Source: Fimbriimonas sp. (lineage in GTDB: Bacteria; Armatimonadota; Fimbriimonadia; Fimbriimonadales; Fimbriimonadaceae). From it: a stretch of DNA of 64,000 nucleotides. The notes beneath the pieces are model-generated. The model was not told the DNA's origin. It searched no databases and saw nothing but the letters and a program-made list of their open reading frames with translations. Shown here one piece after another: positions 15,049 through 17,414 of this stretch; positions within the stretch are counted from its first letter, which is position 1, and each line of letters opens with the position of its first letter. The stretch spans positions 1 to 64,000 of the forward strand of contig JARLGV010000071.1 of the NCBI GenBank assembly GCA_031292555.1, read 5' to 3'. Both the position numbers and the translations under genes were made by a program.

Positions 15049-16515
15049 CTACTTTGTGTGCTGATCGTAAGTCTCGAACGGGTCGAGCATTTCGACGTAG
15101 TTGTGGCGATCGAGGGCGACGCCGTTCCAATCGAACAGGTAGAAGCGAGGACCTTTTCGGGCCAAGACGTGTTCGACCAGCTGAGACCTTCCCTTCGCGC
15201 GGGTGTTTTGAGGTGGATCGGTCATAGCGGTCACGATGTCCAAGTCATCGAGGACCCGCTTCGTCTTCCCCATTTGCTGCCAAGCGTAGAACAGGCTGCT
15301 CTCGGGATCGATGTTGTGGTACTCCAAGTCCACGGAGTGAAGCGCGTCGTCGCGCCAGCCGATTTGCTCCTCCTCCCGATACTGCTCCACGATGTGCAGC
15401 TTGGCGACCCAGTCGATCCGGTCTCCCATCGCAAGTGGCTCTTTCTCGAGGCCGTTTAGAACTGATTCCCATTCGTCGAGGATCCAATCAGTCTGGTCGC
15501 TCTCGCCCCGATATGCCTGGGCAATCTCCAGATACATACGCTGAAGGTCGATTGCGCTTAGCGTTGTTCCATCCATCAGCGTGACCATCCAGCGATAGGT
15601 GGGATCCCGGCTGACCTCTCTCAAAGCAAGCAACGGGTTCGCCATCGTGATGTCGATCGGCACAAGATGGTCTTCCAGCAGACGTAAAACCAGCAGCGTC
15701 GTTCCGATTTTCAGGGCGTACGCGTATTCGTTCTGATTCGACTCGCCGAACAACAAGTGAAGCCGGGTCATCCCCTCGTGAGAGTAAAAATGCTCCCACT
15801 TCGGATTGATGAGGGCTCGATTAAAGCGAACGCGGCTCGCGATCGTCTTCAGGATATGATCGGCACGCTGGCTGAGTTGGAAATCGACGTCCCAGTCGGG
15901 GATGACGCCGTAGACTTGCGACACCCAGATGTAGTCGACCGGATTGTCGATGACCTCCTGGTAGCTGGGCCGGGCGGTGTTCGAAGTCAGGATGTGCCCG
16001 CCAACTCGACCAACGCCGGCGAAAATTTGACGCGTCACCAAGAACGGGTAGAGCATCTGAACCGACGTGTTCAGAAAATCATCGTCTCCTCGCACGAGGT
16101 AGTTCTCGTGACATCCGAACGTGTGCCCTCCGAAGTGGTCAACCGAATTGTTGTAGACGCTGATGACGTCTTCCAGTCCGAGTTCGTGGATCGCTCGAAC
16201 AATCTGCCGCTGGCCGGCTCGGTCGTTTGCCACCAGATCCCACAGGCTACGACACTCTGCGGTCGCGTATTCCAGGTGCGAACCGACCGCATCGATGTAC
16301 ATTCGAGCGCCATTCATCAGAAAACCACCCGACTCGGCAGGCTCGAATACATCGTCTCGAGCATGCAAGTCGATCGCCCCTAACCTTAGGTCGTGAAAGA
16401 GGTAGTTCTTGATCGTCTCGACTGCGATCTCGGGTGTCCCGTACGTGTCGTCAGACACAAGACAGCCGAATTCGGTCTCAACCCCAAAGATTCGATCGCC
16501 CGGCATTCTCGCCAT
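15049..16515 (-). CDS. Dop/PafA family: Pup- or UBact-type ligase or deamidase
   Basis: 488 residues of the carboxylate-amine ligase family that attaches (PafA) or deamidates/removes (Dop) the ubiquitin-like tag Pup. Key motifs are RIFGVETEFG (residues 8-17; catalytic Glu), NGARMYIDAVGSH (68-80; Asp75 of the active site), EYATAEC, NNSVDHFGGHTFGCHENYL, SQRADHI and DPPQNTRAKGR. EYATAEC looks PafA-like, whereas the central extension after the FAGVGRVGG stretch and the C-terminal LDWxAKL/VDLxY pattern look more Dop-like, so I leave the subtype open. No Pup/UBact, proteasome subunit or Mpa gene was found in the window. It stands alone between ispH (convergent) and accD (divergent). Outside Actinobacteria such enzymes go with the UBact modifier. 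Confidence 0.88.
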   Translation of the reverse strand: MARMPGDRIFGVETEFGCLVSDDTYGTPEIAVETIKNYLFHDLRLGAIDLHARDDVFEPAESGGFLMNGARMYIDAVGSHLEYATAECRSLWDLVANDRAGQRQIVRAIHELGLEDVISVYNNSVDHFGGHTFGCHENYLVRGDDDFLNTSVQMLYPFLVTRQIFAGVGRVGGHILTSNTARPSYQEVIDNPVDYIWVSQVYGVIPDWDVDFQLSQRADHILKTIASRVRFNRALINPKWEHFYSHEGMTRLHLLFGESNQNEYAYALKIGTTLLVLRLLEDHLVPIDITMANPLLALREVSRDPTYRWMVTLMDGTTLSAIDLQRMYLEIAQAYRGESDQTDWILDEWESVLNGLEKEPLAMGDRIDWVAKLHIVEQYREEEQIGWRDDALHSVDLEYHNIDPESSLFYAWQQMGKTKRVLDDLDIVTAMTDPPQNTRAKGRSQLVEHVLARKGPRFYLFDWNGVALDRHNYVEMLDPFETYDQHTK

Positions 16516-16601
16516 ATGGATTAGATACTACAGGATGCTTCCATCTGTTCGTTCGCATCTCTCTTTACGCTTTTTGGGTCTCACGCGGTATCCTGACGTC
16601 C

Positions 16602-17414
16602 TTGAGCAATAAGGCAGAGACCAAATCCGAAGGGTTTTTGCAGTGCGCCAACTGCAAGAAAATTCTCTTTTCGGTCGATTTCGAGCAGAACCTGCGCGTG
16701 TGCCCTAACTGCGGGCACCATCATCGGCTTTCTGCAACTCAGCGTATCGACATCACTTTCGATCCAGGCAGCTTCGTCGAGTTAGATCGGGACCTTCGAT
16801 CGGTCAACCCGCTCGAGTTTCCGGAGTATGCGGACAAACTGGCCGCCGCCATGGAACGCCAGGAAGCTAACGATTCGATGACGAGCGGAACCGCCACTTT
16901 GGGTGGAATCGCGGTCACAACGGCAGTAGCCGATTTCCACTTCATGGGTGGGTCGATGGGCTCCTTGAATGGCGAGAAGATCACGCGCACGCTCGAACGC
17001 GCGCGCGAATCGAATTGCCCGGCCATCGTGTTTTGTGCGTCAGGCGGAGCGCGTATGCAGGAGGGCCTTCTCTCTCTCATGCAAATGGCGAAAACCACGG
17101 CCGCTGCCCAACGGTGTTCCAAGGCAGGCGTGCCGTTCCTCGCTGTATTCACCGATCCGACGATGGCGGGAGTTCTCGCAAGCTACGCCTCGATCGCCGA
17201 CGTCATCCTCTCCGAGCCCAGAGCGCTTGTCGGCTTTGCGGGCTTACGAGTGAGCAAGCAGGCTGGAGTTGGCAAGGTGCCCGACGATTTCCAGACTGCG
17301 GAATTCGCCTTCAACCACGGGATGATCGACCGGATCGTTCCTCGCAAGGAGATGCGAACGACCCTCATCACGCTTATCAAATCCCTTGGAGGAGGCAAAC
17401 CCAGTGGAGCATAA
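16602..17414 (+). CDS. accD: Acetyl-CoA carboxylase carboxyltransferase, beta subunit
   Basis: 270 residues from TTG 16602 (LSNKAETKSEGFLQCANCKK). The four-cysteine zinc finger CANC-x16-CPNCGHHH is near the N-terminus. The crotonase-type fold follows, with GTATLGGIAV, the oxyanion region FCASGGARMQEGLLSLMQM and PTMAGVLASYA. It transfers the carboxyl group from carboxybiotin to acetyl-CoA with AccA in fatty-acid synthesis. The frame is open back to 16434, but that part has no zinc-finger-family similarity and would overlap the divergent Dop/PafA start; the exact start is uncertain. It overlaps the next small gene by 11 bp. Confidence 0.94.
   Translation: MSNKAETKSEGFLQCANCKKILFSVDFEQNLRVCPNCGHHHRLSATQRIDITFDPGSFVELDRDLRSVNPLEFPEYADKLAAAMERQEANDSMTSGTATLGGIAVTTAVADFHFMGGSMGSLNGEKITRTLERARESNCPAIVFCASGGARMQEGLLSLMQMAKTTAAAQRCSKAGVPFLAVFTDPTMAGVLASYASIADVILSEPRALVGFAGLRVSKQAGVGKVPDDFQTAEFAFNHGMIDRIVPRKEMRTTLITLIKSLGGGKPSGA

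Follow-up and report, generated by a model that had tools for sequence, protein, structure and literature searches.

Does a ligase gene that stands alone serve a protein-tagging system, and if so, which one? The gene in question lies at positions 15049 to 16515 on the minus strand of a 64,000-nucleotide stretch of Fimbriimonas sp. DNA, referred to here as the window. An active-looking enzyme of the Dop/PafA family outside Actinobacteria had been predicted at this locus, and its nearest named records, from Armatimonadetes and Fimbriimonadaceae at approximately 70-86% identity, bear this out. The presence of PafA and Dop homologs in Armatimonadetes has already been noted (PMC7947786). The original prediction also held that no modifier, 20S proteasome subunit or Mpa lay within the window. 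This is true of the window, where a profile search of all ORFs of at least 40 amino acids found no Dop, UBact, PrcA, PrcB or Arc, but it is untrue of the genome. The genome's gene content, orthology, the gene order of relatives and conserved active-site residues, all directly observed, indicate that the gene is very probably pafA, encoding the ligase that serves a UBact (Pup-like) proteasome system which is complete but has scattered genes, pafA, prcA and arc having left an ancestral operon.

Identity and active site of the predicted ligase

The ORF is real and encodes 488 amino acids from an ATG start codon. Its product matched the Pfam model PF03136 (Pup_ligase) with 417 bits (1e-124; cut-off 25), which places its family assignment far beyond chance. 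The PafA model TIGR03686 scored best, with 303.7 bits against 277.5 for the Dop model TIGR03688; the PafA score lies below the curated cut-off of 551.3, which is an annotation threshold and not a functional criterion. An AlphaFold2 model of the protein (pLDDT 87.6, pTM 0.90) was compared with Dop and PafA crystal structures using Foldseek, and matched both about equally (E 1e-24 to 1e-32). The protein therefore has the Pup_ligase domain and fold expected of PafA, and the choice between PafA and Dop is undecided by fold alone. The features of the gene were as follows:

15049..16515, minus strand: pafA, UBact-protein ligase (Pup_ligase family), 488 aa, from PF03136, TIGR03686 versus TIGR03688 and the AlphaFold2 model
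16465..16485, minus strand: GVETEFG, residues 11-17, N-terminal GhExE ATP-binding motif, from conservation, with its role from PMC7947786
16252..16293, minus strand: DAVGSHLEYATAEC, residues 75-88, the catalytic Asp followed by the PafA-type VGS insertion and ATA, compared with Table 1 of PMC7947786
15880..15999, minus strand: residues 173-212, holding a lineage-specific insert of approximately 26 residues between GRVG and QLSQR, from alignment
15799..15801, minus strand: Lys239, opposite the Arg227 of Dop that holds the phosphate, from alignment, with the role of R227 from PMC8599861

An accD ORF listed on the opposite strand (16434-17414, plus strand) overlaps the 5' end of pafA when read from its GTG start at 16434. 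The true accD start is likely to be later, leaving a short divergent intergenic region between pafA and accD.

The motifs GVETEFG and NGARMYID (residues 68-75) are both intact, as predicted. GhExE is the N-terminal ATP-binding motif of PafA and Dop enzymes (PMC7947786), and G11, E13, T14 and E15 were invariant in 85/85 UBact-type PafA proteins; D75, R217 and H253 were likewise invariant among these 85 orthologs of the window protein. Hecht et al. list 20 positions that were used to convert Dop into PafA (Table 1 of PMC7947786). In an alignment with actinobacterial PafA and Dop, the window protein carried the PafA residue at nine of these 20 positions, the Dop residue at none, and neither residue at the rest, a match to PafA that is one of direction and not complete, since most alpha-loop positions are lineage-specific. 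The Dop encoded in the same genome had the PafA residue at three of the 20 positions and the Dop residue at four. Two additional residues, F40 and the V in VGS, appeared PafA-like by eye; the program alignment placed both otherwise. The spacing from the catalytic Asp to the next His was two residues in Dop and three to four in PafA, and the stretch corresponding to the Dop loop spanned 47-48 residues (52 in one sequence) in UBact-type PafA versus 74-79 in Dop. Neither a Dop loop nor any Dop-diagnostic residue was found in the aligned window protein, and the mixture of PafA-like and Dop-like motifs that had been proposed was thus not upheld. Sequence as well as orthology favors a dedicated ligase.

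A scattered UBact-proteasome system

We searched the genome assembly (6.46 Mb, 140 contigs) for the remaining components, family by family. Exactly two PF03136 proteins were present: that of the window, on contig C127, and a second on contig C66. The C66 protein has a Dop loop (WDYRSESPRADLRGF), scores best with the Dop model (358 versus 262 bits), and is 31% identical to the window protein. Its gene is followed contiguously by UBact and prcB, with overlapping stop and start codons. This UBact has 60 amino acids, ends in RQRSGQ, and matched NF033388 with 75.6 bits (cut-off 35) and PF20513 with 75.4 bits, and PrcB retains an intact HGTT processing site. PrcA was located on contig C23 (TIGR03691, 2.8e-17) and an Arc/Mpa-type ATPase on contig C124 (TIGR03689 pup_AAA, 8.9e-133), both below the curated cut-offs. 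UBact, Dop, PafA, PrcB, PrcA and Arc are therefore all encoded in one genome, on four contigs and not in the single operon that is usual, if not strictly defining, for such systems. The system is complete, only scattered. Of the genome's two PF03136 proteins, one is the Dop, which leaves the window gene as the sole candidate for the ligase of the system. This gene content is consistent with the earlier expectation that a Pup/UBact tagging system should operate here. The cluster on C66 has its own Dop but lacks a PafA, which the window gene supplies, with catalytic residues that are intact and also conserved in relatives.

The gene order of relatives suggests how the system came to be scattered. 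In four genomes of the same order but of different families (L044, L045, L046, L051), the order is Dop-UBact-PrcB-PrcA-PafA, with the ortholog of the window protein last. Arc-Dop-UBact-PrcB-PrcA-PafA, or most of it, occurs in more distant Armatimonadota (L107-L113, L115, L117, L119, L125, L133, L136), and the same operon or most of it, again ending in the ortholog, is found in Bipolaricaulota (L124, L130, L134, L135). Its occurrence in a second phylum and across the other families leads us to infer that the operon came first. Within the family of the window, pafA lay apart from dop-UBact in 35/35 genomes where both PF03136 genes were found. Three of these 35 carried both genes on one contig, separated by 1.0, 1.85 and 2.2 Mb, and these single-contig relatives confirm the separation. 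Pfam PF00227 proteins were present in all 61 genomes of the set of relatives, and UBact in 56 of them. The order accA-accD-pafA-ispH-folB-nusA-infB is common to the window and its nearest relative (L057), and partly to others. Genes of the system were also partly separated in two neighboring families of the order (G041 and G049 in f2; G042, L055/L056, in f5), so that linkage was probably lost more than once. The solitary position of pafA in the window would be explained if, in this family, pafA had moved out of an ancestral Arc-Dop-UBact-PrcB-PrcA-PafA operon together with prcA and arc.

Two arrangements may represent intermediate stages of operon break-up: PafA adjoining Dop without UBact (L047, genome G046), and Dop-UBact-PrcB-PrcA without PafA (L055/L056, genome G042). 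No PF03136 protein was found in two genomes of the same family (G124 and G125, genus g42; 1.5 Mb, 97% complete), which suggests that the whole UBact system was lost there along with genome reduction.

These results also bear on other readings of the gene. A bifunctional enzyme, combining ligation with depupylation or deamidation, was raised as a possibility in the original prediction, and PafA and Dop do resemble each other in fold and in their catalytic Asp, the window protein receives similar scores from both family models (303.7 and 277.5 bits), and an engineered Dop-to-PafA mutant retained some of both activities (PMC7947786). However, the same genome encodes a separate Dop, with a Dop loop, adjoining UBact, while at all 20 diagnostic positions the window protein lacks the Dop residue, and it has no Dop loop and a Lys where Arg227 is invariant in Dop; we therefore rejected bifunctionality as very improbable. 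The proposal of another target, that is, an orphan ligase acting with a different modifier and unrelated to the proteasome, drew on the lack of any partner gene in the 64-kb window. We rejected it too, as still less probable: UBact and all four of Dop, Arc, PrcA and PrcB are encoded in the genome, no other PafA candidate exists there, and orthologs of the window protein lie in an operon with UBact. The isolation of the gene from the rest of the system might instead mark a decayed or misassembled copy. This we likewise rejected, as the least probable of the three, since the frame is open, the catalytic residues are invariant, and the ortholog in relative L057, from a separate assembly, is 86% identical and lies in the same gene order.

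Predicted mechanism and distinctive features of UBact-type PafA

With the window gene taken as pafA, the chemistry of the system, the coupling of its parts and a direction of change with the operon first would be those expected from its families. PafA/Dop family chemistry is established (PMC7947786, PMC8599861), and by homology the following steps are predicted. Deamidation by Dop (C66) would first convert the Gln at the C-terminus of UBact (C66) to Glu. Using ATP, PafA would then phosphorylate this Glu and attach it to lysines in the target proteins, which would be degraded by the 20S core of PrcB and PrcA (C66 and C23) together with the Arc ATPase (C124). Dop could also remove the UBact tag from these targets. 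Across related loci, 11 UBact proteins ended in RSGQ and 20 in RSGE, that of the present genome ending in Gln, and the ending differed even within one genus (UBact at L001:1199-1381, minus strand, and relatives; Gln in G000, Glu in G008). With both endings mixed among close relatives, the need for deamidation by Dop seems to switch often. The Arc proteins of UBact systems (L008:1003-2709, minus strand; L107-L136) had a conserved terminal Ile/Val pair, for example RRNII, KKSIV or DSVV. Mycobacterial Mpa has a penultimate Tyr, and docking of these Arc proteins on the 20S core may therefore differ from that of Mpa.

The window protein is alike in fold and catalytic motifs to actinobacterial PafA (C. 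glutamicum, 4B0T/4BJR; Nonomuraea, L137), with which it is approximately 29-30% identical, and has in common with it the VGS insertion after the catalytic Asp, an Asp-Trp near the C-terminus and the lack of a Dop loop. It differs in the insert before the SQR motif, in NPKWE, present in UBact-type PafA where actinobacterial PafA has NTRDE, and in its alpha-loop residues. To Dop (A. cellulolyticus, 4B0R; the copy on C66) it is alike in fold and shared catalytic residues, and unlike in the Dop loop, the Dop-diagnostic residues and the Lys in place of Arg227. Among 85 UBact-type PafA proteins, a set without Nitrospirota, the stretch from GRVG to QLSQR had 39-40 residues in 82, compared with 8-13 in Dop and approximately 14 in C. 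glutamicum PafA, and position 239, aligned with Dop R227, was Lys in 83 and Arg in two. Arg occupied the R227 position in 28/28 Dop proteins of UBact systems and likewise in those PafA and Dop proteins from Actinobacteria that were compared; according to PMC8599861, this residue holds the catalytic phosphate. The combination of the insert with Lys for the phosphate-holding Arg in this clade is possibly a new point.

In our tree, UBact-type PafA formed one clade with support of 100/100 and a long stem. The best tree did not join it with actinobacterial PafA; a joint clade was not rejected (p-AU 0.19), in a test of two runs with long stems and few actinobacterial sequences, some of them partial. 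That the change from Arg to Lys and the insert make UBact-type PafA a mechanistically distinct ligase is a tentative idea which we consider rather unlikely. On such a reading, the Lys and the insert might perhaps lock PafA into one-way ligation or recognize UBact; taken to its extreme, it would mean that the ligases of the UBact type and those of the Pup type had separate origins from Dop-like ancestors.

Significance for the UBact system in Armatimonadota

The UBact-proteasome system was reportedly described by Lehmann and colleagues in 2017 (doi 10.1016/j.bbrc.2017.01.037, as cited in PMC12751074). The set found here is the same, comprising UBact, Dop, PafA, PrcA, PrcB and Arc, with a UBact matching the models NF033388 and PF20513; the difference lies in the scattering of the genes, with dop, UBact and prcB together and prcA, arc and pafA each elsewhere. 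The window gene is thus a largely ordinary member of a known system, and the puzzle of a ligase without partners disappears as an artefact of viewing a single 64-kb window in a lineage with a broken-up UBact operon. The change from Arg to Lys sets UBact-type ligases apart from Pup-type ones in a simple way that can be tested. Almost every genome of this Armatimonadota family retains a UBact system despite the loss of linkage, which suggests that there is selection for the system.
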